From assembly GCA_031292515.1 (NCBI GenBank), contig JARLGZ010000235.1:62001-126000 (forward strand): a stretch of 64,000 nt of DNA, read 5' to 3'. This DNA comes from Puia sp. GTDB lineage: Bacteria > Bacteroidota > Bacteroidia > Chitinophagales > Chitinophagaceae. The position numbers and the translations under genes were made by a program. The notes under the pieces were generated by a model. That model ran no database searches, had not been told where the DNA came from, and was given only the letters and a program-made list of their open reading frames with translations. Of the stretch, positions 46,748 through 60,945 are shown piece by piece; the first letter of the stretch is position 1, and every line of letters starts with the position of its first letter.

Positions 46748-47563
46748 TCACTTCAGGCGTCCATCGCCCAATATTCTCCTGCGCAGGGCATCGGATATTT
46801 TTTCCACGAAGATGATGAGCAGGATGGTAAAGAATATCAGGGCCAGCGCGTCGCGGTAATGCAGTACGCGCATGGACAGGAACAGCTCAAAGCCGATACC
46901 GCCGCCACCGAATATGCCCAACCCGATAGCCGCCCGCATATTGATATCGAAAGAATAAAGAAAGTTGGCGATAAAAGAGGGGAAGACCTGCGGAAGGATC
47001 GCATAGCGGATGACTTGCATCCTGGACGCGCCGACCGAATAGATCGCTTCCGAAGGAGCATTTTCGGTATTCTCGATGATCTCCGTGAACAATTGCCCAA
47101 ACGTCCCGATCGTCCCGAATACAAGCGTCAGCATTCCCGCAAAGGCGCCCAGGCCGACCGCTATCACAAAGATCAATATGATGACCAGCCCGGGTATCAC
47201 ACGTTGAAGGGATAGGACCAGTCGTACGAGCACCCGCACAAACCGCAAAGGCATCGTATTGGAAGCGGCCAGAAAAGCCAGGACGACGGCAATACTCCCC
47301 CCGAAAAGCGTCCCGAGAAAGGCCATCGAAATCGTTTCCAGTATGGAAAAAGCAATACCCTTGCCGGACCACAACACCTCAAAGTTCGGAGGTAGCATAC
47401 TCCCGATCAGTTCCGTCACATAATGAAATTCGGTTACCAGCATCCATGGATTGAACTGCAGATAGATACAGGTTCCTACCAGCAAAATCGAAACCAGGGA
47501 AAAAAGGGTGGCCTTCCGTTTGAACCGGACCGACGGAAGCGTGTATAAAGCAGGACGATTCAT
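46748..47563 (-). CDS. phnE: Phosphonate ABC transporter permease PhnE, second copy
   Basis: Inner-membrane permease of 271 residues with about six helices and the binding-protein-dependent transport loop (EAA-like) region TFGQLFTEIIENTENAPSEA near residue 155. SVGASRMQVIRYAILPQVFPSFIANFLYSFDIN (read as ASRMQVIRYAILPQVFP) is also typical of PhnE. Its ATG overlaps the TGA of phnE1 by four bases, so the two are translationally coupled and form a heterodimeric channel with PhnC and PhnD. Confidence 0.93.
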   Translation of the reverse strand: MNRPALYTLPSVRFKRKATLFSLVSILLVGTCIYLQFNPWMLVTEFHYVTELIGSMLPPNFEVLWSGKGIAFSILETISMAFLGTLFGGSIAVVLAFLAASNTMPLRFVRVLVRLVLSLQRVIPGLVIILIFVIAVGLGAFAGMLTLVFGTIGTFGQLFTEIIENTENAPSEAIYSVGASRMQVIRYAILPQVFPSFIANFLYSFDINMRAAIGLGIFGGGGIGFELFLSMRVLHYRDALALIFFTILLIIFVEKISDALRRRILGDGRLK

Positions 47564-48354
47564 CGCAGAGAGCCCTCCATTTTTACTTTTTTACGCAGGG
47601 AGGCCGAAAGTCTTTCGGTGATGAACACCATGACCAGCGTAATGATCAGGGCGGTGCACGCCTTACGATAGTCAAGCAACGAAAAAGCACGGTACAATTC
47701 ATACCCGATACCACCCGCCCCTACGGCGCCCAGGACGATCGAAAGCCGGATATTCAATTCAAAACGGAACAGCGCGAAAGAAATAATGGAAGGGATGATG
47801 GGTTGGATCACCCCGAATGCGATCACCTGGAGCTTTCCGGCGCCCAGGGCTTCGATCGATTCGATGGAAATGGGATCTATCTCTTCGATAGTGTCGGCAA
47901 AAAGCTTACCCAGCATCCCGATACAACCTATCGTAAGGGAAAGGACACCTACAAAGGGCCCCAGACCCATGGCCGCCACCAGGATAAGCAGGATGATGAT
48001 TTCCGGTAGCGACCGCTCCGTACCGATCAGGAAACGGCAGGTGGCCCTCAGCCAGCGGGGGGAAATATTGGAAGCCGCGGCCAGACCGAAGAAAAGCGAT
48101 AACACGGTTCCGAGAAAGGTGCCGAGCAGGGCGATGATCACCGAATCAAAAGCCGGCTTCAGCATCTCTGTAAAAGCAGACCAGTCAGGGGGAAACATAC
48201 CCCCGAAAAACGACAGACCCGCAACAAGACCTTTGCCGAGGCCACTCATATCGACCTTACAGACACGTGCGGCGCCTGATGTCAGGACAACCAGCAGCAG
48301 GATCGGAAGGACCCGCTTCCGGTATCGCTTGAGACTATAGGCACGCCAATTCAT
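47560..48354 (-). CDS. phnE: Phosphonate ABC transporter permease PhnE, first copy
   Basis: Inner-membrane permease of 264 residues. The family loop is FADTIEEIDPISIESIEALG near residue 155, followed by AGKLQVIAFGVIQPIIPSI. Helices lie near residues 12-30, 65-90 and through the C-terminal half. It overlaps phnC and phnE2 by four bases on each side (ATGA), so phnC-phnE-phnE are tightly coupled. Imports phosphonates or related phosphorus compounds delivered by PhnD. Confidence 0.93.
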   Translation of the reverse strand: MNWRAYSLKRYRKRVLPILLLVVLTSGAARVCKVDMSGLGKGLVAGLSFFGGMFPPDWSAFTEMLKPAFDSVIIALLGTFLGTVLSLFFGLAAASNISPRWLRATCRFLIGTERSLPEIIILLILVAAMGLGPFVGVLSLTIGCIGMLGKLFADTIEEIDPISIESIEALGAGKLQVIAFGVIQPIIPSIISFALFRFELNIRLSIVLGAVGAGGIGYELYRAFSLLDYRKACTALIITLVMVFITERLSASLRKKVKMEGSLR

Positions 48355-49442
48355 GGCTGTTCCGGTTTTTTTAGGGCGTAAATATCCTTCAGCACTTTCA
48401 CTTCGTTTTGCTTCAGCCGCATGGCGGCTCCCATATTCTTCAATACATGCTCACCCAGCAGCCTGTCCTGTTCATAACTATCGGCGGCGGCCTGAGGCGG
48501 TATCCCGGCGATCTGGCCGGGGTCGCCGGCGATTTGACCCGGAGGAGTAGCGAGTAGATCGCCCGCAATCGGGCCGGGTGTATTCGCGATCAGCTCGCCC
48601 GCGATCTGCACACGTCCTTCCGGGAAAGAGACCGAATCGGTCATCGAGGCGGCAGAAATACGTTCGGCGAGCGGCTGTTCGTGATTTTCCAGCTGACGGA
48701 GCTCCTCTCCATATATTTCGATGAGCAGGTCCATCGACAAACGGGGGTCTCCGTCATAAATGATCTTTCCATCTTTGATGGCAATTACCCGGCTGCAATA
48801 TCTTGCCGTCATCTCCGGCTGATGAAAGACGCCAATCACGGGCATGGTAGCGGACAGAGGCCTGATCAGCTTCATGATCGTCTTGGCATTGCTGGGATCC
48901 AGGTTGGAGATCGGTTCGTCAGCGAGTAAAAGGGTAGGATCCTGGAAGATCGCCCTGGCGATCGCCACCCGCTGCATTTCACCGCCGCTCATGCTTCCCA
49001 CACGGGTGCCGGCAAGATGGCCGATCTTGACTTTGTCAAGCGCCAGCAGGGCCTGCTCCGCTTCGAGGTCCGTAAATCCATAGAGCAGGCTCCTTAACGT
49101 ATTGATCTGTCCCAGCCTGCCGATCAGCACGTTTTCCAGGCCTGTAAGCCGTTTCACCAGGTGATACCCCTGGAAGACGACACCTATCTTCTGTCGGAGC
49201 CTTCGAAGTTGTCTCTTAGGCACGCTGCAGATATCCCTCCTTACCTGGTTCTCGTCTTCCACGATCACGGAACCCCGGTCCGGTTTTAGCAGACCGTTGA
49301 GACATCGAAGCGTCAGCGTTTTGCCCGCCCCGCTGGGACCGAGTATTCCCACGAATTCACCCTTGTTGACCGTAAAGCTGATCCCGTCTAAAAGCTTACG
49401 GCCGTTGGGCAAAGATTTTGTCAGATTTTTTACTTCGATCAT
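48351..49442 (-). CDS. phnC: Phosphonate ABC transporter ATPase PhnC with a long repeat-bearing C-terminal extension
   Basis: ABC ATPase of 363 residues. The normal domain occupies residues 1-245: Walker A GPSGAGKTLTLRCLNGLL near 35, signature SMSGGEMQRVAIARA near 150, Walker B TLLLADEPISNLDP near 170 and the H-loop GVFHQPEMTARYCSRVI. PhnC proteins are normally about 250 residues, so this one has about 110 extra. The extension has four degenerate (Q/P)IAG(D/E) repeats at residues 279-316 and a charged tail with RLKQNEVKVLKDIYALKKP. The reading frame is intact into phnE1. The extra domain could dock on another phn protein. Confidence 0.9.
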   Translation of the reverse strand: MIEVKNLTKSLPNGRKLLDGISFTVNKGEFVGILGPSGAGKTLTLRCLNGLLKPDRGSVIVEDENQVRRDICSVPKRQLRRLRQKIGVVFQGYHLVKRLTGLENVLIGRLGQINTLRSLLYGFTDLEAEQALLALDKVKIGHLAGTRVGSMSGGEMQRVAIARAIFQDPTLLLADEPISNLDPSNAKTIMKLIRPLSATMPVIGVFHQPEMTARYCSRVIAIKDGKIIYDGDPRLSMDLLIEIYGEELRQLENHEQPLAERISAASMTDSVSFPEGRVQIAGELIANTPGPIAGDLLATPPGQIAGDPGQIAGIPPQAAADSYEQDRLLGEHVLKNMGAAMRLKQNEVKVLKDIYALKKPEQP

Positions 49443-49511: not shown

Positions 49512-50450
49512 TCAATGCCCCTTCTTATTGAAGTCGAGGTCTTTGATACCGCCGGCTATCTTCCGAAGCCCGTTGTAGAGGGAATCCTGCGCCGGCATAT
49601 AACTGAGGTCGGTTTGATTCAGATGGTAAAGCGAAAGATATCCCTTCCATATATCCGGCGCTTTTTCCGGTAAGTCCAGGTAGGCCTGCCTCACCTTTCC
49701 TGCAAATTCCGTATTGATATCCGTACGCGCTGTGATGCAGCCTTCCACGATCGGATCGGAGGTCCACAGCCTCACGATATCCTGGTCTTTGATCATCCCC
49801 CTTGCACTGAGCATGTTCAGTGCGAGTTCCATCGTACAGCCCACATCGACTTTTCCCGATTTTACGGTCATCACGGAAGCCGCATGACTGCCGGCAAACA
49901 ACGTCTCCTTGAAAGCGTTCTGGGGATCCAGCCCGATGCTGGTCAAATAGGCCCGGGGAATCAGGTGCCCTGAAGTGCTCGCCGGATCCGCAAAACAAAT
50001 AGTCAGGCTTTTCGCACGGGCCCGCACATCGTCCATCGTCCTCAGACCGCTGGCCGGACTGGTGATGAGAACGCTCCGGTACATGAACGGCTGGCCCTTT
50101 ACCCCAATCATGGCGAGGGGGACCAGCGGCTTTTTCTGGGTCGCGAGCACATAGGAAAAAGGGCTTAGATAGGCTATATGCACTTTGTTCGTGAGCATGG
50201 CCTGTATCACGGACGTATAATCGGTGGAAATAGTCAATTCCACCTTCATGCCCAACTGCTTTTGCAGGTATTGCCGGACCCTTTCGAGAATCTTCCCCTG
50301 CTCACCGGGGTTATCGCCCGCGTAGACGCCGATCAGTAGCGTAGAAGGCACACCATTAGCATCAAGATCGGCCTTGTTCCTGCATCCGCCCAATAGCAGG
50401 ATGAAAAGAAAGGTAAATAAGAACGCCTTAACCGGAAATCTCTTTTTCAT
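49512..50450 (-). CDS. phnD: Phosphonate ABC transporter substrate-binding lipoprotein PhnD
   Basis: Periplasmic-side binding protein of 312 residues with a lipobox (LLLGGC at about residue 23). The domain resembles PhnD/phosphite-binding PtxB-type proteins: LLIGVYAGDNPGEQG, TDYTSVIQAMLTNKVHIAYLSPFSYV (read as VIQAMLTNKVHIAYL), ICFADPASTSGHLIPRAYL near 150 and FAGSHAASVMTVKSGKVDVG. The sugar- or phosphonate-contact residues cannot be assigned by eye. It is followed 69 bp later by phnC. Confidence 0.93.
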   Translation of the reverse strand: MKKRFPVKAFLFTFLFILLLGGCRNKADLDANGVPSTLLIGVYAGDNPGEQGKILERVRQYLQKQLGMKVELTISTDYTSVIQAMLTNKVHIAYLSPFSYVLATQKKPLVPLAMIGVKGQPFMYRSVLITSPASGLRTMDDVRARAKSLTICFADPASTSGHLIPRAYLTSIGLDPQNAFKETLFAGSHAASVMTVKSGKVDVGCTMELALNMLSARGMIKDQDIVRLWTSDPIVEGCITARTDINTEFAGKVRQAYLDLPEKAPDIWKGYLSLYHLNQTDLSYMPAQDSLYNGLRKIAGGIKDLDFNKKGH

Positions 50451-50488: not shown

Positions 50489-51184
50489 CTAAACAGCGGC
50501 GATATCGATATCCCTTAAAACGCCAGGTTTCTCCAATGCCGGTGAGGCCAGAAATTTCTCCAGATCCAGCAAATCTTCGAAACGTTCCTCCAGGGTGGCA
50601 CGATCCCAGTTCCACCATTCGCTGGCCAGCAGTTTTCCGATCGTCGCCTCGTCGAACCGTTTCTTGATCACCTTTGCAGCAACGCCGACGGCCACTTCAT
50701 ACGGCCCGATATTCTTCGTCACCACCGCACCCGATCCGATCACAGCGCCGGTGCCGATCTGCACGCCGGGCATGATGACGGCCCCATGCCCAATCCATAC
50801 ATCATGACCGATCACACATCGATGATCCCTCCTCCATTGAAAGAAATCCTTGTCATCCTCGGCGCCTAAACCGTAATGCTTCCTGCGGTAGGTCATGTGA
50901 TGCTGGGTCACTCTCCACTGAGGATGGTTGCCGGGGTTGATCCGCACGCTGTTGGCGATGGAACAGTATTTTCCGATCTCGGAATAGATGATCTGGACAT
51001 TTCCCGCCGTATAACTATAGTCCCCGAAAGAAGACTCTACCAGGAATGTATTGGCTCCGAGTGCCGTCCAGCCGCCGATCTTGCTGTCTTTTATCCGGCA
51101 ACTGGGATGTATATGCGGCTCCTCTCCCAGCTTCGTGTCTTTTTCCCCGGTCGTAACCGCAGGATATTGATCGAAATAACGCAT
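50489..51184 (-). CDS. Hexapeptide-repeat transferase of C-P lyase clusters
   Basis: Left-handed beta-helix protein of 231 residues from ATG 51184 ([10 protein letters not shown]). Isoleucine-patch repeats run through [42 protein letters not shown] and [22 protein letters not shown] (each read in parts). The [20 protein letters not shown] stretch is typical of acetyltransferases found in phosphonate operons (TIGR03308-like). The acceptor is unknown; E. coli has an unrelated GNAT acetyltransferase, PhnO. It lies between the 2H phosphoesterase and phnD. Confidence 0.85.
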
Positions 51185-51200
51185 ATGGGATTTGGTTTTT

Positions 51201-52037
51201 TTACAGTAAATGAATGGGATAATAATCCGGCCTTTTGAATTCTGCAAGATGATGATACCGCCTCAGTTCCGTATGAGAGAGCAGGAAATGAACGTTCTTA
51301 CGGACGAGTTGCTCGTTGATCCCGATCACCGTTTCTGCAAGATGAGCTCTTTGCACCCTATCGAGCAGCTTTTCCACATACAGCAGGGTGATATGACCGA
51401 TAAAAGGCCTTGTCAGTAGGACTCCGAGTTCAAAAAGGCGGCTATTCCCATAGAACTGTGAGCGGAAACGGAGGATGCGGTTGTAATCCTCTTCATCTTC
51501 AAATATACCCAGCATGCCGAGAGAAGTACCGAAAATGCCCAGCCCGATCAATTTCATGCGAACAGGTCCGGCAGGCGGAGACGGCTCCATTCCCGTGAAG
51601 ACCTCCCTGACGATTTCCGGATAAGCCGGCTCCAGCCCACGGTCTACGATGGAATGTTGAAAGCGCTCCGCGGAAAGAGTATTGGCGACCGTCTGGTGGA
51701 AACTGGCTGCGGGGAGCTTATAATAAGCGTCCGCGGGGTACAAATTGCTGATCAGCTCGATTTGCAGGCCCTCCAGCTCAAAAGGCAGCAGGTCATTATG
51801 AGGGTTGTCCGCAACCATCGATGCGATGGCAAAACCCTGATATTCCTGCGGTTCCCAGGCGCGTCCGTTAAAGCGGAAATTCCCCGATGGATGTATCTCC
51901 TGCGCCCGCTCCCGTATCCGGTCCGCACTGACTTCCCGGTACTGCCGGCGGGTATAGTCCAGGAAGGGCAAATCTTTGGGTTGCGATTCCTGCTTTGCTT
52001 CAGGCCCTCCTTTTATTTTCAGTTCCTCCTTATGCAT
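51201..52037 (-). CDS. 2H phosphoesterase-like protein in the C-P lyase cluster
   Basis: Protein of 278 residues from ATG 52037; an upstream TTG would overlap phnM2 by about 100 bp. It carries two H-x-T motifs, [12 protein letters not shown] near residue 110 and [13 protein letters not shown] near 213, the hallmark of the 2H phosphoesterase superfamily, which opens or forms cyclic phosphates and 2',5' phosphodiesters. It overlaps the phnM2 stop by eight bases, so it is translated with phnM2. No PhnP, the metallo-beta-lactamase that opens the ribose 1,2-cyclic phosphate, is seen in the locus. This protein is a candidate replacement. Confidence 0.78.
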
Positions 52038-53271
52038 GAGCTTGTTCTTTGGAGATGCGATTGGATTCCCTCGACTGTCTCGGGGCCACCGGTTGCTTGG
52101 TGTTCGCCTGGAAGACCGCGCTGCCAGCGACAAACGTATGCGTGATCATAGGAATCTCATCCAGCATCCTTACCAACAGCATGTCCGCGTGTTTCCCGGT
52201 CTCCAGGCTCCCGGTAAACGAGTCGATGCGCGTTGCTTTAGCCGGGTTGAGGCTGGCAAGGTTCACTGATTCATGCAGAGGAAGCCCCTCCCGGTTATTT
52301 AGTAAAAATACGGAATGCAGGATGGAAGGCGGGTAATAATCCGAGCAGAGTATATTTACCACCTTTTCCAGGACCGCCTCTTTCATAGACAGGTTCCCGG
52401 ACAGCGATCCGCCGCGCAGGATATTGGAAGCGCCTCCGGCTACATGCATGCCTAAGGCCTTGGCATGACGACCGGCTTCGAGATTGATGGGGAACTCGCA
52501 GATGTCCACTCCCAGCTTGTGCATAAAATCTACTTTCTCAACGGTGTCGTCGTCGTGTGAGGCAATCGGGATCTTGTTGTCATAAGCACAACGAATCATT
52601 CGCTCCAGCCGCTCTCCCTCGATCTTCGGCTGATTGATCCGGTTCTCATATTCAATGGCGGCCTTTTCCGTCGTCATTCCCTTACTGGCCATGTACCTGA
52701 AAAAAGTCTCTTTGCTAAGCTGCCCCTGGCCGGGTGTATGATCCATAACCGACAGCAGGTGAATATGGCCCTTTTCCATGAGATCCAGACAGGTGTCATA
52801 GGCATGAACACCACTCACTTCAAACCGGAGATGGATCTTATTATTGATCAGGGTCGGCTCCGCGGAAATCCTGGAAACGGTTTCAAATACCTCCCGGCGG
52901 CTATAGCGGCTGCGGGATTGGAGGTCCGCCGCATCATAACCCAGGTGCAGGGAATGAAATACCGTGGTGAAGCCGCAGCCGCTCATCTTCCTCTCCAGCT
53001 CACGAAAAGCCACCGGAATAGGGATATCGGCGCCGGTTCTGGGAACGATCTCCATGTCCATGGCATCGGTATGGATGTCTATGATCCCGGGAATAATCAC
53101 CCCTCCCTTTGCGTCGAGGACACGGGAGGCTGCCTGGAAAGAAGAAGAATCCCCGGTATCGGAACCGATTTCGACAATGATACCATCTTCCACCAGGACA
53201 TACCCGTTTGAGATCGTCTCCACGGGAGTAACTACTTTTGCATTTTTTATGAGTATCGAGCTCATGTTCAT
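52030..53271 (-). CDS. phnM: Ribose 1-methylphosphonate 5-triphosphate diphosphatase PhnM, copy 2
   Basis: Amidohydrolase of 413 residues with IIDIHTDAMDMEIVPRTGAD near residue 57, LLSVMDHTPGQGQLSKETFF near 172, IASHDDDTVEKVDFMHKLG near 235 and VAGGASNILRGGSLSGNLSM near 280. It begins with MNMSSILIKNAKVVTP; two ATGs are possible, at 53271 and 53265. It lies 123 bp after phnL. Its catalytic residues resemble copy 1, but the two differ through most of the sequence, for example IIDIHTDAMDMEIVPRT versus VIDIHTDYLERELNPRP. The pair may handle two substrates. Confidence 0.91.
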   Translation of the reverse strand: MNMSSILIKNAKVVTPVETISNGYVLVEDGIIVEIGSDTGDSSSFQAASRVLDAKGGVIIPGIIDIHTDAMDMEIVPRTGADIPIPVAFRELERKMSGCGFTTVFHSLHLGYDAADLQSRSRYSRREVFETVSRISAEPTLINNKIHLRFEVSGVHAYDTCLDLMEKGHIHLLSVMDHTPGQGQLSKETFFRYMASKGMTTEKAAIEYENRINQPKIEGERLERMIRCAYDNKIPIASHDDDTVEKVDFMHKLGVDICEFPINLEAGRHAKALGMHVAGGASNILRGGSLSGNLSMKEAVLEKVVNILCSDYYPPSILHSVFLLNNREGLPLHESVNLASLNPAKATRIDSFTGSLETGKHADMLLVRMLDEIPMITHTFVAGSAVFQANTKQPVAPRQSRESNRISKEQAHA

Positions 53272-53394: not shown

Positions 53395-54102
53395 TTAAGA
53401 CACCATCGCAGCCTCCGTCAACTCTCCGAACCGAAGATCGAGCCTCCTGTCAGTAAGCCGCTCGAGTGTATATTCGTCATGAGAGATACAGATCACCGAG
53501 GTCCCCTTCTTCTTTAGCTCGAGGATCATGTCGATCACCGTGTCTTTTGTCTTCTGATCCAGTGACGCCGTTGGCTCGTCAATCAGCAGGAGACGCGGAT
53601 CACCGATGATGGCGCGGGCTACGTTGATGCGTTGCTGCTCTCCCCCGCTGAATGTGACGGGGAAAGCATCCCATAACTCGGTCGGAAGACCCAGCATTTC
53701 GAGCATTCCCCTGGCCTTGGCGCGGGCCTCTTCCTTGTTACCGGTCCTAAGCAGGCTCTCGCATACCACGTCGACGGCCGTGACGCGTGGAATGACGCTA
53801 AGAAACTGGGAACAGTAGGTGATCTCCGTCTTCCTGAGCGCGATGATCGCATGGTCGTCCGCGCGAACCAGGTCTATCTTGCCCGCCCGGGAAGAAAAGA
53901 GGATCTCTCCGGAACTGGCCAGATACGTGCGGTAGAGACATTTCATCAGGCTGGATTTTCCGCTGCCGGACTTACCCGTGAGACCGATGATCTCCCCTTC
54001 CTGCACAGAGAATTGTATATTCTTAAGCGCTTCGATCTTTTTCCCATGCAGGATATGCAACCGGAACACTTTACTCAGGTTATTGATCTCCAGTATATTC
54101 AT
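53395..54102 (-). CDS. phnL: C-P lyase complex ABC-type protein PhnL
   Basis: Soluble ABC-family ATPase-like protein of 235 residues that associates with the C-P lyase core. It has Walker A GKSGSGKSSLMKCLYRTY near residue 44, signature VTFSGGEQQRINVARAII near 145, Walker B LLLIDEPTASLDQKT near 170 and the H-loop ICISHDEYTLERL. ITYCSQFLSVIPRVTAVDVV near 100 is the PhnL-specific Q-loop region. It is 112 bp downstream of phnK. The sequence TEITYCSQ supports PhnL over PhnK. Confidence 0.92.
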   Translation of the reverse strand: MNILEINNLSKVFRLHILHGKKIEALKNIQFSVQEGEIIGLTGKSGSGKSSLMKCLYRTYLASSGEILFSSRAGKIDLVRADDHAIIALRKTEITYCSQFLSVIPRVTAVDVVCESLLRTGNKEEARAKARGMLEMLGLPTELWDAFPVTFSGGEQQRINVARAIIGDPRLLLIDEPTASLDQKTKDTVIDMILELKKKGTSVICISHDEYTLERLTDRRLDLRFGELTEAAMVS

Positions 54103-54214: not shown

Positions 54215-55063
54215 TTATAACAGGGAACTTACCAGCAGTTGCGAATATTCGTGCTGCGGATCCTGCAGGATCTGGTCGGTCAGACCACTCTCTACGACAC
54301 GCCCGTTCTTCATCACGAGCGTCCTGTCGGTCAGCATGCGTATGACCGACAAGTCATGGGAGACGACAATCATCGCGATACCCAGTTCCTGCTGCAATTC
54401 CCTGATCAGGTCGAGTACCTTGGCCTGTACCGATACATCCAGACCGGTCGTCACCTCATCCAGGAAGAGGAGAGGAGGGTTGTTGGCAATCGCCTTGGCG
54501 ATCTGTACCCTTTGCTGCATACCGCCGCTGAATGAAGAAGGCCTGTCATCCATCCGGCGAACAGGGACCTCCGTCTTATCCAGCAGCCCGGAAGCCCGGT
54601 CCCGGATATTGCCTACATGTAAATTACCCGCCATGATCAGCTTCTCCGCAATATTTCCACCGGAAGAGAACCGGAAATTGAGACCGTCGCGTGGATTCTG
54701 GTAGACCATCCCCATCAGATGATTCCGGATAAACCGCTTCTGCTGGTTGGAGGCATCCAGCATATTGGAATGCCCGTTTGAAAAGGGCTTTAACCAGGCC
54801 GCCCCACCCGACGCCTCCATGTCGAAATAGAGCAGCTTCACCACCGTGCTCTTACCGGAGCCGCTCTCTCCGACAATGCCCAGCACTTCACCGGGGAAAA
54901 GATCGAAACTCACATCCGCACACGCTACGATGCTTTCCGTCTCAGGGCATATATTCGAGTTGCAGGAAGGCCCCGTCAGCTTCAACGTATTTTCATTGGG
55001 CTCTCCGTAAATCTTCGTCAGGTTCCTGACCTTCAGCAGCCAGTTGTCCTTTATCCCGCTCAT
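54215..55063 (-). CDS. phnK: C-P lyase complex ABC-type protein PhnK
   Basis: ABC-family protein of 282 residues of the C-P lyase supercomplex. It has Walker A GESGSGKSTVVKLLY near residue 66, signature FSGGMQQRVQIAKAIA near 175, Walker B LLFLDEVTTGLDVSVQAKV near 193 and the H-loop VVSHDLSVIRMLTDR. MGMVYQNPRDGLNFRFSSGG near 115 is the PhnK Q-loop motif. In E. coli PhnK binds the PhnGHIJ core near PhnJ. Its ATG overlaps the PhnJ stop by four bases (ATGA). Confidence 0.92.
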   Translation of the reverse strand: MSGIKDNWLLKVRNLTKIYGEPNENTLKLTGPSCNSNICPETESIVACADVSFDLFPGEVLGIVGESGSGKSTVVKLLYFDMEASGGAAWLKPFSNGHSNMLDASNQQKRFIRNHLMGMVYQNPRDGLNFRFSSGGNIAEKLIMAGNLHVGNIRDRASGLLDKTEVPVRRMDDRPSSFSGGMQQRVQIAKAIANNPPLLFLDEVTTGLDVSVQAKVLDLIRELQQELGIAMIVVSHDLSVIRMLTDRTLVMKNGRVVESGLTDQILQDPQHEYSQLLVSSLL

Positions 55064-55956
55064 GATTGGATCGTGTTTAAATATTTATTGACATGCTGCC
55101 GGACCGGATTGCCGGCCGCCAATTTATCGAGATAATTGCTATCGTTGACGACAAACTGTTTGGACCCGTCATCGAGGAACAATTCGTCGAGGAAAGCCTT
55201 TCCGGAACCCGTCCTGTAACAGGATTTTCCCAGGAAGCGTTCGATGTCGAATTTCACATCTTCGAATTCAAGCGGCTCGACTTTTGTATGAGGAGGGACG
55301 ACGTATAACCTTTTTTCCCGCCCTGCCCCGAACAGGAACAGCGCTTCCGACTGGTTGAGATTGGGCACATCCCAGCGTGGAATAGGAGAAGGCGCCATGA
55401 TATACCGGTCGTTGACCTTTACGGGATACCCAGCCCCCAGCATGATATCCCCGTAACGGACAAAGGATTCATAGAGAGACACCCACATTTTTGCATAGTC
55501 GGCTTCTCCGTGCATCTGCCGCGTCTTGTTCTCATATCTTTCCACCCCCCGCAAAGGCTCCGGCTGAGGAACCTGGAAGACAAAGAGCTGGTTTGCCTTC
55601 AACACCTCTTCCGTTATTCGGTGGCGTGACTGGATCAGGGTGGCTTCCGTGGTATCGAAAGTGACCTTGCAATGGGTCATCATCTGAACGAATTCGCGCA
55701 GATTGCAGGCGTTTACACTGGCATCGCTTCCCTGGTCTATGATCTTAAAGATATCGTCGCGTCCGATGAGGGCCAGCGAAACATGGAGCCCACCCGTACC
55801 CCAGCCTCTCGAAATAGGCATTTCGGGAGAAGAGTAAGGAACCTGGTAGCCCGGTATCGCGACGGCCTTCAACAGTTTACGCCGGATCTCCTTCTTCGTG
55901 GATTCGTCGATGAAAGCGAAATTGTATTTGTTGCTGTATTTCTTGTTCTCTATCAT
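55060..55956 (-). CDS. phnJ: C-P lyase subunit PhnJ lacking most radical-SAM cysteines
   Basis: Protein of 298 residues that aligns with PhnJ over its whole length: LLKAVAIPGYQVPYSSPEMP, GWGTGGLHVSLALIGRDD, IDQGSDASVNACNLREFVQM, TLIQSRHRITE, FGAGREKRLYVVPPHTKVEP. In E. coli, Cys241, Cys244 and Cys266 bind the [4Fe-4S] cluster and Cys272 acts on the substrate. Aligned positions here are Cys246 (KSCYRTG), Thr249, Val270 (QFVVND) and Leu276 (SNYLDK). I rechecked the codons on the DNA (55129-55221) and the frame is open on both sides. Gly36 of IPG and His112 of the zinc site remain. The usual radical C-P cleavage is therefore unlikely as drawn. Alternatives are a divergent non-radical role or decay. 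Confidence 0.9.
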   Translation of the reverse strand: MIENKKYSNKYNFAFIDESTKKEIRRKLLKAVAIPGYQVPYSSPEMPISRGWGTGGLHVSLALIGRDDIFKIIDQGSDASVNACNLREFVQMMTHCKVTFDTTEATLIQSRHRITEEVLKANQLFVFQVPQPEPLRGVERYENKTRQMHGEADYAKMWVSLYESFVRYGDIMLGAGYPVKVNDRYIMAPSPIPRWDVPNLNQSEALFLFGAGREKRLYVVPPHTKVEPLEFEDVKFDIERFLGKSCYRTGSGKAFLDELFLDDGSKQFVVNDSNYLDKLAAGNPVRQHVNKYLNTIQS

Positions 55957-55966
55957 GGCTTCGCTT

Positions 55967-57109
55967 TTAGACAGGTTGTAATGAAGGGATGATCACAGAT
56001 GGATTTATTGTCGAAGGAGGGACAGCAGCCGCATTCCTTTCGATGGCCGCGCGGACATTGTTCAGACCGGATTGGAAGGTGACGTAATGCGGCAGCTTCA
56101 GGTGATTGGTAAAACCCATGGACTCTATGCCTTCCGTATGATAAAGAACGAATTCCTGGTCGTTGGAAGGGGAGTTCCCTTCCGGGCTTCGCATGGCCCT
56201 GTCGAGGATACCCATGCAGATAGCCTTCGTATCGTTCTGACCGAAACAGAGACCGTAGCCGATGGAATAATAAGGGATGGCTTTTTTCGACTTTGCCTTG
56301 TACTCGGAGATCATCTCAGCCTCCGTGACCTCGATGCTGCCGATATAGCGTACCCTTCCCAACCTGTCTTTGACCCTTACCGGGACTGCGCCATAGCGAA
56401 GTTCACCTACCGTCGGATGCACACTCCCAAAACCCCTCATGCTGCTATAACCCAGGGCCATCAGCCCCCCCGTTTCCGCCCTGGCAAGCATCTGCAGACG
56501 CGCCGAACGCGGGGCCGGAAACTTGATGGCTTCCCGGGTGATATCCTTCAGCGTGGTATCTTCATCGTTACCTACCGGCTGTAGCAACCCCTCCTTCTTC
56601 AGCAGGTCGATCACTTTGTCGAAATGTGCGATGTCCGCCAGCTTCGCAGGATCGATATGAGCGGCGAAGCCCGCGAGAAACGTTTCGACGTCTTCCTTCG
56701 TCTCAATGGCTTTCGCCGTATCGAGCATTCGCTGGATATAGTCACGGGTGGGGCCGAGAATCTGTCCGCCGGGGATCTCGCGGAACGAAGCCGAGATCTT
56801 CCTCTTAACGAACATCTCCCGTGTGTTGATCGTTTCGGAATAAAATTTCCTTTGCAGGGTAGCCCGGAAGGCCCTCAATACAAAGGCGGCCTCGAATACG
56901 TCGCCTTCCATCTGTTTGATGGCCAGGGCCGCATACTCCGTCGCATAAATGCCTCCTTCTCCCATCACTTTGTCTATCGATAGCCGCAACTGTGAACGTA
57001 TCTGTTCGATTTCTATAGGTTTTACGGCTTTTTTCAGCCTATAGAACTCTACCAGTTCCCGGGCATTATGTATGGCGTCCGTGCCGCCTTTTACCGCGAT
57101 GTATCCCAT
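55967..57109 (-). CDS. phnI: C-P lyase core subunit PhnI
   Basis: Protein of 380 residues of the PhnGHIJ core; with PhnG, PhnH and PhnL it transfers ribose triphosphate to the phosphonate. It has YIAVKGGTDAIHNARELV at the start, VMGEGGIYATEYAALAIKQM near 48, IPGGQILGPTRDYIQRMLD near 112 and ALGYSSMRGFGSVHPTVGEL near 218. The zinc-site pair HLKLPH (His336 and His341) is kept. The C-terminus is slightly long, with a Pro/Ile-rich tail. It ends 10 bp before phnJ. Confidence 0.94.
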   Translation of the reverse strand: MGYIAVKGGTDAIHNARELVEFYRLKKAVKPIEIEQIRSQLRLSIDKVMGEGGIYATEYAALAIKQMEGDVFEAAFVLRAFRATLQRKFYSETINTREMFVKRKISASFREIPGGQILGPTRDYIQRMLDTAKAIETKEDVETFLAGFAAHIDPAKLADIAHFDKVIDLLKKEGLLQPVGNDEDTTLKDITREAIKFPAPRSARLQMLARAETGGLMALGYSSMRGFGSVHPTVGELRYGAVPVRVKDRLGRVRYIGSIEVTEAEMISEYKAKSKKAIPYYSIGYGLCFGQNDTKAICMGILDRAMRSPEGNSPSNDQEFVLYHTEGIESMGFTNHLKLPHYVTFQSGLNNVRAAIERNAAAVPPSTINPSVIIPSLQPV

Positions 57110-57202: not shown

Positions 57203-57814
57203 CTACGCCGTACGGGCAGCATACGAGAAGCGATTGCTCCTCGGGATGCAGACAATATGGTCGTTCCCGTCGGTCAATATCATGTCAATCCCCAATGGAA
57301 ATTCAAGATTTTGTTCTTTCAGCGCTTCCAGCAGGGGTTCCTCCAGACCGCTCACAAAGACCGTCTTTTCCCCCGCAATCCCGGGGCCCTTTAAGGTGAG
57401 GGCAATAGAAGCCGGGATCTTCTCTTCACTGATCTCCTTCACGTCCGTGATGAACGTTGCGCTCTCCTCGGGATAAGACAGGGTACCGGTCCTGGCCTCG
57501 AGGATATACCGCGCTTCGGAATCACCCGGTATAAATATAAAGTCCGCTTTTCTGTGTTCTTCGGAAACGGCCGATGTATTGAGGATCAGGTAGCGGGTGA
57601 TCTCGTCGGCGTAGGGGCCTGCTGCATCAAAGGAGACATCTGCGTTTAAGAGCGCCATGCCTATCAGAACGCTGGCACGGTTGATGCCGGCAGGAGGTTG
57701 GATATTCTCCAGGGTAAGGCTATTGATCTTTCCCGGGCGAGCCATGCTGTCCAGCAGAATCCTGTAATGTACCTGGGCGTCAAAAACTTCGTCGTAAAAT
57801 ATTTCTCTGCTCAT
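57203..57814 (-). CDS. phnH: C-P lyase core subunit PhnH
   Basis: Homodimer-forming core subunit of 203 residues that contacts PhnI. FDAQVHYRILLDSMARPGKI near residue 11, LNADVSFDAAGPYADEITRY (read in parts), TLKGPGIAGEKTVFVSGL near 138 and the C-terminal FPLGIDMILTDGNDHIVCIP match PhnH (DUF-free carboxymuconolactone-unrelated fold). It is 71 bp downstream of phnG. Weak hairpins lie in the 93-bp spacer before phnI (CCGGAT/ATCCGG and CATACC/GGTATG). Confidence 0.92.
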   Translation of the reverse strand: MSREIFYDEVFDAQVHYRILLDSMARPGKINSLTLENIQPPAGINRASVLIGMALLNADVSFDAAGPYADEITRYLILNTSAVSEEHRKADFIFIPGDSEARYILEARTGTLSYPEESATFITDVKEISEEKIPASIALTLKGPGIAGEKTVFVSGLEEPLLEALKEQNLEFPLGIDMILTDGNDHIVCIPRSNRFSYAARTA

Positions 57815-57885: not shown

Positions 57886-58305
57886 CTATTCCTGTTCCAT
57901 CAGTTTAAAATCCACCCGGGTCCGCAGGATATGATTGTACTCCAACGTACGGGCTTCGGAGATAAGACGGGCCTGATCCTGGAGAAAAGCGTCGACCCTG
58001 CCCGTATGAGGGCCGTCCAGTTGTTCGAGGGCGTCGAGGAAAGCAATGCAATAACTTCTTACGGGTTCATCACCCATGCACAGACCGAGCCCGGGGATGC
58101 CGTTTACCAACACCTCGCATTCGGTTGTCAGCGCCTCGCCCAGATAAAAAGGCTGTCCTTCCACGGAATCTTCTGCCTTGATCATGGTCAGGCAGACAGC
58201 CGGCCCACCCGCCATTTTTATTTCAAAATCTTTTTCGAGGGAAGCGATGAATTGCTCAAGAGGAGACAGCTCGCACTCGCAGAGTATATAGTCCTTGTCC
58301 GTCAT
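57886..58305 (-). CDS. phnG: C-P lyase core subunit PhnG
   Basis: Small core subunit of 139 residues that contacts PhnI. The family motif PFYLGEALTTECEVLVNGIP near residue 50 is followed by GLCMGDEPVRSYCIAFLDAL, and the Arg/Glu-rich C-terminus LEYNHILRTRVDFKLMEQE is typical. It is the first phn structural gene of the minus-strand run. The regulator gene lies 173 bp upstream, with repeat words between. Confidence 0.92.
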   Translation of the reverse strand: MTDKDYILCECELSPLEQFIASLEKDFEIKMAGGPAVCLTMIKAEDSVEGQPFYLGEALTTECEVLVNGIPGLGLCMGDEPVRSYCIAFLDALEQLDGPHTGRVDAFLQDQARLISEARTLEYNHILRTRVDFKLMEQE

Positions 58306-58478: not shown

Positions 58479-59195
58479 CTATATACGTAACGCCGATTCA
58501 TTCAGCCGGTATCCGACGGACCTTACCGTTTCCAGCGCACTCTTATAGGCACCCAGCTTTTTCCGGAGACCTACGATCTGAACATCTATGGAACGCTCCG
58601 TGGCAAAATAATCCGTTCCGTTGATCCTTTCGATCAACTGGTTCCTGGAGAAGACCTTACCCGGCTGCCGCGCCAATAACTCAAGCAACTTAAATTCCCC
58701 GATCGTCAGATCCAGCAGATTCTCATGAAGATATACTTTATAAGCAGCCAGATCTATCCTGAGCATGCCCCTCGCGATCGACTCCTTGTTTTCTTTTTTT
58801 GCCTCACCCGCTTCCTCGGAGTATCTCCTGCGAAGAACCTTCTTGACACGGGTCAGCATTTCCCGGATACGAAAAGGCTTTGTAATATAATCCTCGGCGC
58901 CTATCTCCAGTGCCGTTACGACATCGATTTCGTCATTTCGTCCCGTGATCATCATGACCGGAATATCCCGGGTGGCGGAACTGCCCTTCAGATTCTTACA
59001 GAGATCCAGTCCGTCCATTTCAGGCAGCATCCAATCTGTGATCACGAGGTCTGTATTTTCAACAGTAATATATTTTAACGCATCCACCGCATTGAAGAAA
59101 TTCTTTACTTCATAATCCTCGTTGGTCAGGTTATACTTCAGCAGTTCCAGGGTATCATAATGGTCGTCTATAATTACAAGCCGGTATTTTTTCAT
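58479..59195 (-). CDS. OmpR/PhoB-family response regulator, possible phn regulator
   Basis: Regulator of 238 residues. The receiver domain has VIIDDHYDTLELLKYNL near residue 8, the phospho-acceptor Asp in DLVITDWMLPEMDGLDLC near 55 and ITKPFRIREMLTRVKKVL near 108. The winged-helix domain (about 145-235) has MLRIDLAAYKVYLHENLLDL, TIGEFKLLELLARQPGKVF and RSIDVQIVGLRKKL with VRSVGYRL. It lies directly upstream of phnG on the same strand with no histidine kinase nearby. PhoB-type control by phosphate starvation is plausible, given its place and the 11-bp repeats, but it could be an unrelated orphan. Confidence 0.88.
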   Translation of the reverse strand: MKKYRLVIIDDHYDTLELLKYNLTNEDYEVKNFFNAVDALKYITVENTDLVITDWMLPEMDGLDLCKNLKGSSATRDIPVMMITGRNDEIDVVTALEIGAEDYITKPFRIREMLTRVKKVLRRRYSEEAGEAKKENKESIARGMLRIDLAAYKVYLHENLLDLTIGEFKLLELLARQPGKVFSRNQLIERINGTDYFATERSIDVQIVGLRKKLGAYKSALETVRSVGYRLNESALRI

Positions 59196-59475: not shown

Positions 59476-60276
59476 ATGGAACTAAAGATCGTGACCATCA
59501 ACAGCTGGAAATGCGACGGGGACTATCATAGGAGGCTTCCGGTGCTTTCCGGGCAATTAAAGCGGGTAAACCCTGATATTATCGCCTGCCAGGAATGTTT
59601 TTTTGCGGAGGAAGTCGGAGCGGACACCGCGGCCCGGCTGGCAGCGGCTTTGGAGATGGAATACTCTTTTCTCCCCTGCCGTCGCAAAAAAAGAGAGTTC
59701 GATGGCCATTGGGTGGACAGCTATTCGGGAATGGCTGTATTGAGCCGGTTTCCCATCGTCTCCGGCGAGGCGCTGGAACTGTCTTCGGTTCCGGAAGATC
59801 CCGGAAGAAAGGCTCAGCGGGTAGAAATCGAATTCCTGGCAGGGAGGATATTGCGGATCACCAATATCCACCTGACACATCTTCGGGGTCAGACCGCCCT
59901 GCGGAAAAAACAGGTCGCGGAAGTCTGCAAATGGGCAGAAGCAGTGGCTTTGCCCGGGACCGGCGCGGTCGCCTGCAACCTGGTCTGCGGAGATTTTAAC
60001 GCGGTCCTGGCATCGGCAGAACTGGCCACTTTAAAAGAGCTCACAAAAGCCGCGGATGGTTATAGTCTCGGAGGAGGTCCCGAACCACGAACCAGTCTGC
60101 TGGAGTCTTTTAAAAGAGGGCGGACCTTATGCGTCGATTATATTTTTTGCCTGCCGGTAGCCAACAGGTATCCCTTCTGTAAGGATGCCGCGGTCGTCCT
60201 GAATGAGCCCGACGCGCTCACCGGGTTATATCCCAGCGATCATTTCGGGATCAGCGTCGTATTGGTGACGGATTAA
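59476..60276 (+). CDS. Endonuclease/exonuclease/phosphatase-family hydrolase, divergent from the phn locus
   Basis: Metal-dependent phosphoesterase of the EEP (DNase I-like) fold, 266 residues. It has KIVTINSWKCDGDYHRR at the start (metal-site Asn), DIIACQECFF with the catalytic Glu near residue 40, SGMAVLSRFPI near 90, ITNIHLTHLRGQ near 133, VCGDFNAVLAS near 172 and YPSDHFGISV near the end. No signal peptide is visible, so it is probably cytoplasmic. It precedes phnN by 126 bp on the same strand. It may act on a phosphorylated or cyclic sugar of the phosphonate pathway, but DNA or lipid phosphate substrates are equally possible. Confidence 0.85.
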   Translation: MELKIVTINSWKCDGDYHRRLPVLSGQLKRVNPDIIACQECFFAEEVGADTAARLAAALEMEYSFLPCRRKKREFDGHWVDSYSGMAVLSRFPIVSGEALELSSVPEDPGRKAQRVEIEFLAGRILRITNIHLTHLRGQTALRKKQVAEVCKWAEAVALPGTGAVACNLVCGDFNAVLASAELATLKELTKAADGYSLGGGPEPRTSLLESFKRGRTLCVDYIFCLPVANRYPFCKDAAVVLNEPDALTGLYPSDHFGISVVLVTD

Positions 60277-60402: not shown

Positions 60403-60945
60403 ATGGCATCATTATACTATATTATCGGGGCCTCGGGGGCAGGAAAGGATTCGCTCATGAACTATGCCCGTGCAGCCATCAACGGCAGCCATCCGGTGAT
60501 CTTTGCAAACCGCTATATTACACGCCCCCTTGGCACTGGCAATGAGAATCATATCAGCCTGAGCCCGGAGGAATTCAAATGCCGCCTGGAGGGCGGCCTG
60601 TTCGCCCTCGACTGGGGCAGTCATCGGCAATTGTATGCCATCGGAAAGGAAATCGATGAATACAGGAACAAAGGGTTTACGGTCGCCGTCAACGGCTCCA
60701 GGGAATACCTTGCGACGGCACGCGAAAAATACAGCGAATTAAAAGTAGTAATGATTGAAGCCAGCCCGGAACTGATCCGGCGTCGGCTTCTCGACCGGGG
60801 CCGCGAAAGTCCGGCCGACATAGAAGGGAGGATCGCACGGAACCTGGCCCTGAGCCGGCCCGCCGGTCCGCTTATCCGCATCGGCAACGATGGATCGCTG
60901 GCGGAAGCAGGAGAAAAACTTGTATCGGTATTGATCGGTTCCTGA
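60403..60945 (+). CDS. phnN: Ribose 1,5-bisphosphate phosphokinase PhnN
   Basis: P-loop kinase of 180 residues that turns ribose 1,5-bisphosphate into PRPP, the last step of the C-P lyase route. It has Walker A IIGASGAGKDSLMNYAR at residue 6, FANRYITRPLGTGNENHISL near 34 and FALDWGSHRQLYAIGKEIDE near 66, which separates PhnN from guanylate kinase. VNGSREYL near 97 and the lid-like LLDRGRESPADIEGRIARN near 128 also match. It stands apart from the other phn genes on the opposite strand. A hairpin follows the stop. Confidence 0.92.
   Translation: MASLYYIIGASGAGKDSLMNYARAAINGSHPVIFANRYITRPLGTGNENHISLSPEEFKCRLEGGLFALDWGSHRQLYAIGKEIDEYRNKGFTVAVNGSREYLATAREKYSELKVVMIEASPELIRRRLLDRGRESPADIEGRIARNLALSRPAGPLIRIGNDGSLAEAGEKLVSVLIGS

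Follow-up and report, generated by a model that had tools for sequence, protein, structure and literature searches.

How does a carbon-phosphorus (C-P) lyase break its bond when most of the residues credited with that step are gone? The question is raised by the phnJ gene of Puia sp., a soil bacterium, in a stretch of 64,000 nucleotides of contig JARLGZ010000235.1, referred to below in its whole length as the window. In the published mechanism, PhnJ is the radical S-adenosylmethionine (SAM) C-P lyase subunit, in which Cys241, Cys244 and Cys266 (E. coli numbering) bind a [4Fe-4S] cluster, Cys272 carries a thiyl radical and Gly32 is the glycyl radical residue. Of the four cysteines, the window protein has kept Cys241 alone. 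We find the same condition throughout a clade whose phnJ genes are maintained by selection, and, as judged from sequence, the variant is genuine and conserved, a C-P lyase with no means of holding the [4Fe-4S]/SAM centre in its published form. It probably dispenses with radical-SAM chemistry and works at the zinc/histidine site, and its range of substrates is perhaps narrower.

Published descriptions, drawn on here from excerpts of the papers, show nothing of such a form. A 2025 paper reads the fact that the four cysteines and Gly32 are conserved as functional support and recognizes two major PhnJ clades (PMC11978286); the excerpts of that paper describe no loss of the cluster cysteines. The phnJ gene is elsewhere called strictly conserved (PMC12413358, in excerpt). 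Among the matches listed in the open-licence literature, no title or abstract start concerns a PhnJ without these cysteines. Family, operon and known active-site residues are all those of a C-P lyase, and the defining radical-SAM cysteines were tested for and are absent.

The window gene is a 298-residue open reading frame (ORF) (55956-55060, minus strand), open from ATG to stop, that matches the PhnJ profile PF06007 at 413.8 bits against a cut-off of 25, covers profile positions 2-271 of 275 and can be aligned with the E. coli PhnJ chains (PDB 4xb6/7z15) over residues 10-277. An earlier note, made from the DNA letters alone, had claimed an end-to-end PhnJ alignment, with Thr249, Val270 and Leu276 at the positions of E. 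coli Cys244, Cys266 and Cys272 and Cys246 alone left; our alignments confirm this, Cys246 being the equivalent of Cys241, and the codons that it named (55212-55210, 55149-55147 and 55131-55129) are correct by arithmetic. At the three cluster-ligand positions the window protein therefore has Cys, Thr and Val, and at the thiyl position Leu276. The glycyl residue, which the note had also reported as kept, is present as Gly36 and is glycine in all 59 loci compared. Scission by a SAM-made radical passed to Cys272 is, for a protein of this predicted sequence, a step that cannot run as published. Three other Puia species encode PhnJ proteins 78-80% identical to that of the window with the same cysteine pattern (Val or Ile at the third position), so the pattern is not a sequencing error.

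The loss is shared by other Bacteroidota and reaches beyond them. A scan of species genomes gave 17 named loci, including strains of Puia dinghuensis and Mucilaginibacter polytrichastri and three Acidobacteriota, and all 17 are without the three cysteines. The contrast set consisted of E. coli K-12, 25 of the 215 plasmid records that encode PhnJ, and further PhnJ copies from nine of those records. Once repeats had been removed, the alignment comprised 59 PhnJ loci: all four cysteines are present in 29 (four-Cys), Cys241 alone in 30 (one-Cys), and two or three in none, a split beyond what chance would give. This 30/59 is no frequency, since the loci were sampled by one-Cys queries and from plasmids. 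The one-Cys set comprises 18 Bacteroidota, 3 Acidobacteriota, 7 Alphaproteobacterial plasmid copies and 2 Thermus thermophilus plasmids, with Thr or Ser at position 244, Val, Ile or Leu at 266, and Leu, Gly, Ala or Met at 272. The idea that one of the well-studied phosphonate degraders might already be one-Cys was tried on Sinorhizobium meliloti, which proved to be four-Cys.

PhnJ is rare around the window, being found in 4 of 33 genomes of its genus, 4 of 394 of its family and, in a draw of 395 genomes from its phylum, in the window's own genome alone. In a second family, with Mucilaginibacter polytrichastri at its centre, the count is 5 of 251 genomes. Among 396 and 148 genomes drawn from the phyla of two further genomes (G458 and G456), again those two alone had it, and 240 genomes of one Acidobacteriota order gave four copies, two one-Cys and two four-Cys. 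The viral contigs searched gave no relatives. The sole four-Cys copy found in a Bacteroidota record lies on a Dysgonomonadaceae plasmid and is nearly the same as a copy on a Labrenzia plasmid. Because many copies are plasmid-borne, the wide spread may owe much to transfer.

Each of the 14 one-Cys host genomes searched among Bacteroidota and Acidobacteriota has a single PhnJ. Two of the nine plasmid records searched for all PhnJ copies carry both kinds on one replicon: Haematobacter pOT1-5 has one of each, and the Microvirga sp. VF16 megaplasmid (NZ_CP069355.1) has nine PhnJ loci (L082, L089 and L093-L099), seven four-Cys and two one-Cys. That both kinds are kept side by side suggests that they have different jobs and are not interchangeable. 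Seven of the Microvirga proteins, compared pairwise, are 45-86% identical, which makes this an unusual C-P lyase expansion.

In a maximum-likelihood tree of the 59 PhnJ proteins a single branch splits off the one-Cys rows (99 ultrafast bootstrap / 92 Shimodaira-Hasegawa-like approximate likelihood ratio test, SH-aLRT), and the split was recovered in 200 of 200 bootstrap trees. A 45-row tree supports it at 98/96, and when the C-terminal domain, and with it the trait columns, is removed from those rows, one change suffices (SH-aLRT 78). Quick trees of PhnI and PhnK require two label changes each, with some joins flagged as long-branch, so these alone do not show one origin; the Nitratireductor PhnK row, in that tree and in the partner-subunit comparisons described below, stems from a broken gene. 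Rooted with PhnH, the PhnJ tree nests the one-Cys clade within the four-Cys forms, which reads as one loss; the PhnH branches are very long, so that rooting is not fully trustworthy.

The earlier note had named a ratio of nonsynonymous to synonymous substitution rates (dN/dS) near 1 as the sign of a pseudogene. Between one-Cys pairs it is far lower, 0.014-0.19 for the gene as a whole (dS finite in 9 of 12 pairs) and 0.03-0.29 over the C-terminal domain (11 of 12 finite, the widest pairs near saturation). One-Cys phnJ is under purifying selection and is no decaying gene. A pseudogene or an assembly error was rejected as next to impossible, given the sharing of the pattern by 30 loci of four phyla, congeners included, the open frames and these ratios; nothing about phnJ itself speaks for it, and the one broken gene that we saw is in a relative, the Nitratireductor sp. 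OM-1 plasmid, where phnK is split over two frames (L066:7873-8706) without an annotated coding sequence. The note had further held that the radical centre was lost and the fold kept. The loss stands, clade-wide and under selection; the fold is read from sequence alignment. That selection keeps PhnJ despite the lost cysteines means that the textbook mechanism may be incomplete.

The known residues of the active site have been kept. Gly32, Arg107 and Gln124 of PhnJ are retained in 59 of 59 loci, His108 in 57 of 59 (both exceptions are four-Cys, Labrenzia-type copies), and PhnI His219, His328 and His333 in 45 of 45. The window accordingly has the zinc-site PhnI histidines and the PhnJ contacts to 5-phosphoribosyl 1,2-cyclic phosphate (PRcP) as these residues are named in the excerpts of PMC9947105. 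The earlier note was right that PhnI His336 and His341 are kept, these being E. coli His328 and His333, and partly right about a zinc-site histidine of PhnJ: the residue is conserved (His112, equivalent to His108), its zinc role is not upheld, for in the cryo-electron microscopy structure the zinc ligands are the PhnI histidines and His108 touches the cyclic-phosphate group of the ligand bound there (PMC9947105, in excerpt). Within the C-terminal domain (E. coli 235-281, bounds from the structure paper) only Cys241 and Asp268 are invariant in the 59 loci, as are Phe227 and Asp229 just before it. The retention of Cys241 when its three partners are gone suggests a role of its own.

Little else distinguishes the two kinds. 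When 28 one-Cys and 17 four-Cys PhnJ rows were screened, four columns separated them, one for each of the three cysteines and a fourth, N-terminal one in which 9 of the 17 four-Cys rows have a gap. A stricter screen of PhnG, H, I, K, L and M, with groups from 18+6 (PhnG) to 28+17 and some copies shortened by locus ends, found one separating column, in which PhnI Asp318 becomes Glu. The outcome of the PhnJ screen would be expected if the four cysteines were a structural, zinc-ribbon-like metal site, with the same reaction in both forms at the PhnI-PhnJ zinc site and one clade having dropped the metal. The bond-breaking step has indeed been disputed, since the proposed cluster lies about 30 Å from Gly32 (PMC9947105); a review finds the discrepancy confusing, notes that structural work has used Zn in place of an intact cluster, and calls for further study (PMC7916636), and PMC11978286 likewise mentions Zn at these cysteines. 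The same three papers, again in excerpt, recount published work that assigns SAM-dependent methane formation to the cluster-bearing E. coli PhnJ, and a purely structural site does not need an invariant Cys241. We regard this explanation as rather unlikely, on a par with roughly a quarter of our belief.

Could the missing ligands have been replaced? The earlier note had allowed that the cysteines might have moved elsewhere in the protein, and Cys84 and Cys96 of the window looked promising within the genus; they are not clade-wide, being cysteine in 21 and 14 of 28 one-Cys PhnJ proteins, respectively, and both absent from Thermus. Several PhnG cysteines are frequent in the one-Cys group, in at most 14 of 18 copies. 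Across the PhnG to PhnM copies compared, no cysteine other than Cys241 is common to all one-Cys systems. A metal or cluster site rebuilt from Cys84, Cys96 and Cys246 or from partner-subunit cysteines would account for the frequent ones and fails on the rest of the group, and we consider it quite improbable. PhnI Cys253 was tried as a residue lost together with the cluster ligands (Cys in 13 of 17 four-Cys against 3 of 28 one-Cys copies, the three being Acidobacteriota) and was set aside because the exceptions follow taxonomy on both sides.

A radical could also be supplied from outside, a separate radical-SAM enzyme making the Gly32 glycyl radical and Cys241 serving as thiyl carrier. Both residues are kept in 30 of 30 one-Cys forms, although Gly32 may be kept for other reasons. 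The one activase model run, the glycyl-radical model TIGR02494 (those of NrdG and PflA were not run), found no match over its cut-off in 19 one-Cys host genomes, 10 of which have weak matches, against 3 of 14 control genomes over cut-off. This supply route strikes us as improbable, if slightly less so than a rebuilt site. When 17 loci were compared with the window and E. coli Phn proteins, the remaining ORFs being annotated in part, no added gene was common to all one-Cys loci.

The pathway around the reaction appears to be in place: its course, from ribosylation and trimming through the making and opening of a cyclic phosphate to 5-phosphoribosyl 1-diphosphate, can be followed in the genes, with the cyclic-phosphate hydrolase as a candidate. 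As the earlier note had said of the partner genes, phnG, H, I, K, L and M are present around the window phnJ; the core set (phnG, H, I and J with K, L and M) is likewise found in 17 related loci, some shortened by contig ends, and one-Cys operons with phnG to phnM occur in Bacteroidota, Acidobacteriota, Alphaproteobacteria and Thermus. PhnN, a further member of the C-P lyase pathway, is recognized over its cut-off in the window. Importer genes adjoin the one-Cys operon in the window and in 10 of 12 other Bacteroidota loci extending past phnM, and also lie beside those of three Acidobacteriota loci, Thermus and three Alphaproteobacterial plasmids. A complex that cuts no bond, in which PhnJ is a scaffold for PhnK and PhnL and phosphonates are stored, sensed or ribosylated, would explain why the proposed catalytic residues are gone while the remaining protein is kept; it is hard to square with the retained cyclic-phosphate contacts, phnM and phnN, and with an importer and a PhoB-like regulator next to the operon, and we hold it to be as improbable as a rebuilt metal site.

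PhnP, the cyclic phosphodiesterase of the C-P lyase pathway, is of the metallo-beta-lactamase fold class. Its model (TIGR03307) finds nothing over cut-off in 19 one-Cys genomes, all 19 of which have weaker metallo-beta-lactamase relatives; in control genomes it has matches in 11 of 14, one over cut-off. All 13 Bacteroidota loci reaching past phnM encode instead a protein with two HxTx motifs (the first HQT in all 13, the second HIT in 12 and HVS in one), a pair that we take to be the signature of a 2H phosphoesterase; its family matches are weak. Nothing in the three Acidobacteriota loci matches the window protein; one of these loci (L022) has a metallo-beta-lactamase-fold gene nearby. In one Alphaproteobacterial one-Cys operon, DUF1045 and PhnN genes follow phnM. 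On Thermus pVV8, a gene downstream of the phn set (L044:10055-10837) encodes a YmdB-like metallophosphoesterase that could be a cyclic-phosphate hydrolase.

The earlier note had suggested a different reaction. What we see does not establish a different overall reaction: ligand contacts, PhnI histidines, PhnM, PhnN, an importer and a candidate cyclic-phosphate hydrolase are all present. Pathway genes and contact residues so well retained suggest either the same pathway with another bond-breaking step, or a wrong textbook role for the cysteines. The first is our leading view, held tentatively and short of an even chance: a functional C-P lyase variant whose scission subunit has no [4Fe-4S]/SAM centre and would use zinc/histidine-site chemistry. 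PhnCDE would import the phosphonate, which PhnI (with PhnG, H and L) would attach to ribose and PhnM would trim. The substrate would then be held at the PhnI-PhnJ zinc site by PhnI His336 and His341 and by PhnJ Arg111, His112 and Gln128 (window numbering), and the ribose 2'-OH would attack phosphorus, with zinc and His112 assisting, so that the organic group leaves. The predicted product is ribosyl 1,2-cyclic phosphate, the same cyclic product as in the known pathway, which the 2H phosphoesterase, or another cyclic phosphodiesterase, and PhnN would turn into 5-phosphoribosyl 1-diphosphate. Cys241 and Asp268 are candidates for the remaining role of the C-terminal domain. Since the step would not be radical-SAM chemistry without Cys272 and a cluster, it would likely favour phosphonates or phosphate esters whose leaving group is better than methyl.

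Several points weigh against zinc-site attack by the 2'-OH. Heterolytic cleavage would not be expected of an unactivated alkyl C-P bond, so that restricted substrates are required, and the importer genes do not indicate which substrates those are. There is no other known active-site change, which fits an unchanged reaction equally well. With no 2H match in the three Acidobacteriota loci and no PhnP over cut-off in the 19 genomes, the step after scission is not secured; the Nitratireductor one-Cys operon may be broken; and the AlphaFold structure model (mean predicted local distance difference test score 48.9) is too poor to speak for the geometry. We think that 2'-OH attack is the likeliest substitute, with the reading that the four-Cys site never was the radical centre close behind. 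A bolder reading, in which C-P bonds, unactivated ones included, are broken without cluster or SAM by nothing more than the PhnI-PhnJ zinc site, Cys241 and Asp268, would make this a second, possibly oxygen-tolerant chemistry and the E. coli cysteine site not the bond-breaking site; we rate it as unlikely, if marginally less so than a structural metal site.

A natural clade without the cluster ligands and with the other known residues kept is a ready-made test of the catalytic residues, and it makes an open mechanistic question testable whether the answer is a zinc-site variant or a wrong role for the cysteines. The literature, as excerpted here, credits C-P lyase with forming methane from methylphosphonate in oxic water and with degrading glyphosate in some bacteria. 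As a marker of radical-SAM methane production, phnJ may mislead for the whole one-Cys clade.

Set beside known systems, the window shares with the E. coli C-P lyase the genes phnG to phnM in the same order, a PhnJ alignable over 268 residues, the PhnI histidines, the PRcP-contact residues and Gly32. It differs in the absence of Cys244, Cys266 and Cys272, in having two phnE genes along with genes for a 2H-phosphoesterase-like protein and a hexapeptide transferase, and in that no match to E. coli PhnP was found among the one-Cys loci compared. Plasmid pVV8 of Thermus thermophilus HB8 (NC_017767.1) resembles the window in its one-Cys PhnJ of the same clade (C, T, V, M at the four positions), its phnD, phnE and phnG to phnM genes and a hexapeptide-type protein; unlike the window, it has a shorter PhnK (255 versus 282 residues), neither Cys84 nor Cys96 in PhnJ, and no 2H phosphoesterase annotated in the stretch compared. 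The Rhizobiales and Rhodobacterales plasmids (Microvirga, Rhizobium 11515TR, Sinorhizobium B11, Mesorhizobium AR07, Haematobacter and Nitratireductor) also carry one-Cys PhnJ of the window's clade (C, S, L/V, G/A). Their one-Cys operons differ from that of the window in having a PhnF regulator where annotated and, in Mesorhizobium AR07, DUF1045 beside PhnN; two of the replicons also carry four-Cys copies, and in Nitratireductor phnK is split between frames. The window features are collected in the table.

Table. The phn genes of the window, their neighbours and the codons at the four cysteine positions of PhnJ (Ec, E. coli; ABC, ATP-binding cassette)
Feature	Positions	Strand	Basis
phnJ, one-Cys form (C246, T249, V270, L276)	55060..55956	-	profile match, alignment
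PhnJ codon 246, Cys (Ec C241), retained	55219..55221	-	alignment; arithmetic from start 55956
PhnJ codon 249, Thr (Ec C244 position)	55210..55212	-	alignment
PhnJ codon 270, Val (Ec C266 position)	55147..55149	-	alignment
PhnJ codon 276, Leu (Ec C272 position)	55129..55131	-	alignment
phnI with H231, H336, H341 (Ec H219, H328, H333)	55967..57109	-	profile match, alignment
phnH	57203..57814	-	over cut-off in two profile searches
phnG	57886..58305	-	one profile over cut-off, the other just under (84 vs 89 bits)
phnK, ABC ATPase	54215..55063	-	best match PhnK, under cut-off (240.3 vs 302.85 bits); operon position
phnL, ABC ATPase	53395..54102	-	over cut-off
phnM, ribosyl phosphonate triphosphate diphosphatase	52030..53271	-	PRK15446.2-6, 403 bits, cut-off 233
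2H-phosphoesterase-like, two HxTx motifs; candidate cyclic-phosphate hydrolase in PhnP's place	51201..52133	-	weak family matches of relatives; window copy itself without family match
phosphonate-associated hexapeptide transferase (TIGR03308); ORF start uncertain	50489..51247	-	over cut-off
phnD-like phosphonate/phosphite/phosphate binding protein	49512..50450	-	family matches
phnC-like transporter ATPase	48351..49442	-	best match PhnC, under cut-off
phnE permease	47560..48354	-	over cut-off
phnE permease, second copy	46748..47563	-	over cut-off
PhoB-like response regulator, just upstream of phnG	58479..59195	-	best match PhoB, under cut-off
endonuclease/exonuclease/phosphatase family protein adjoining phnN	59476..60276	+	family match
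phnN, ribose 1,5-bisphosphokinase	60403..60945	+	186.3 bits, cut-off 156

Some related operons are arranged differently. In two loci a gene resembling PfkB/phosphomethylpyrimidine kinases separates phnN from the phosphatase-family gene (L010:981-1781 and L012:474-1259), a PfkB kinase follows phnE in Sinorhizobium B11 (L067), and a Bryobacteraceae operon (L022:2464-8479) has the rearranged order phnI-phnM-phnG-phnH-phnJ-phnK-phnL. One locus labelled Beijerinckiaceae (L018, CAJCIQ010000021.1) is on a contig that forms part of a genome in the window's Bacteroidota family, and the label is doubtful.

Other divergent kinds of C-P lyase were also seen. The Labrenzia and Dysgonomonadaceae plasmids (L054 and L055) have near-identical phnGHIJKL genes beside an iron ABC transporter, with no phnM annotated in the stretch; their PhnJ has Gln in place of His108 and sits on a very long branch. 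Three plasmid matches from Morganella, Proteus and Klebsiella (H58-H60) are further divergent PhnJ proteins, about 38-39% identical to that of the window, with PhnI present where annotated.

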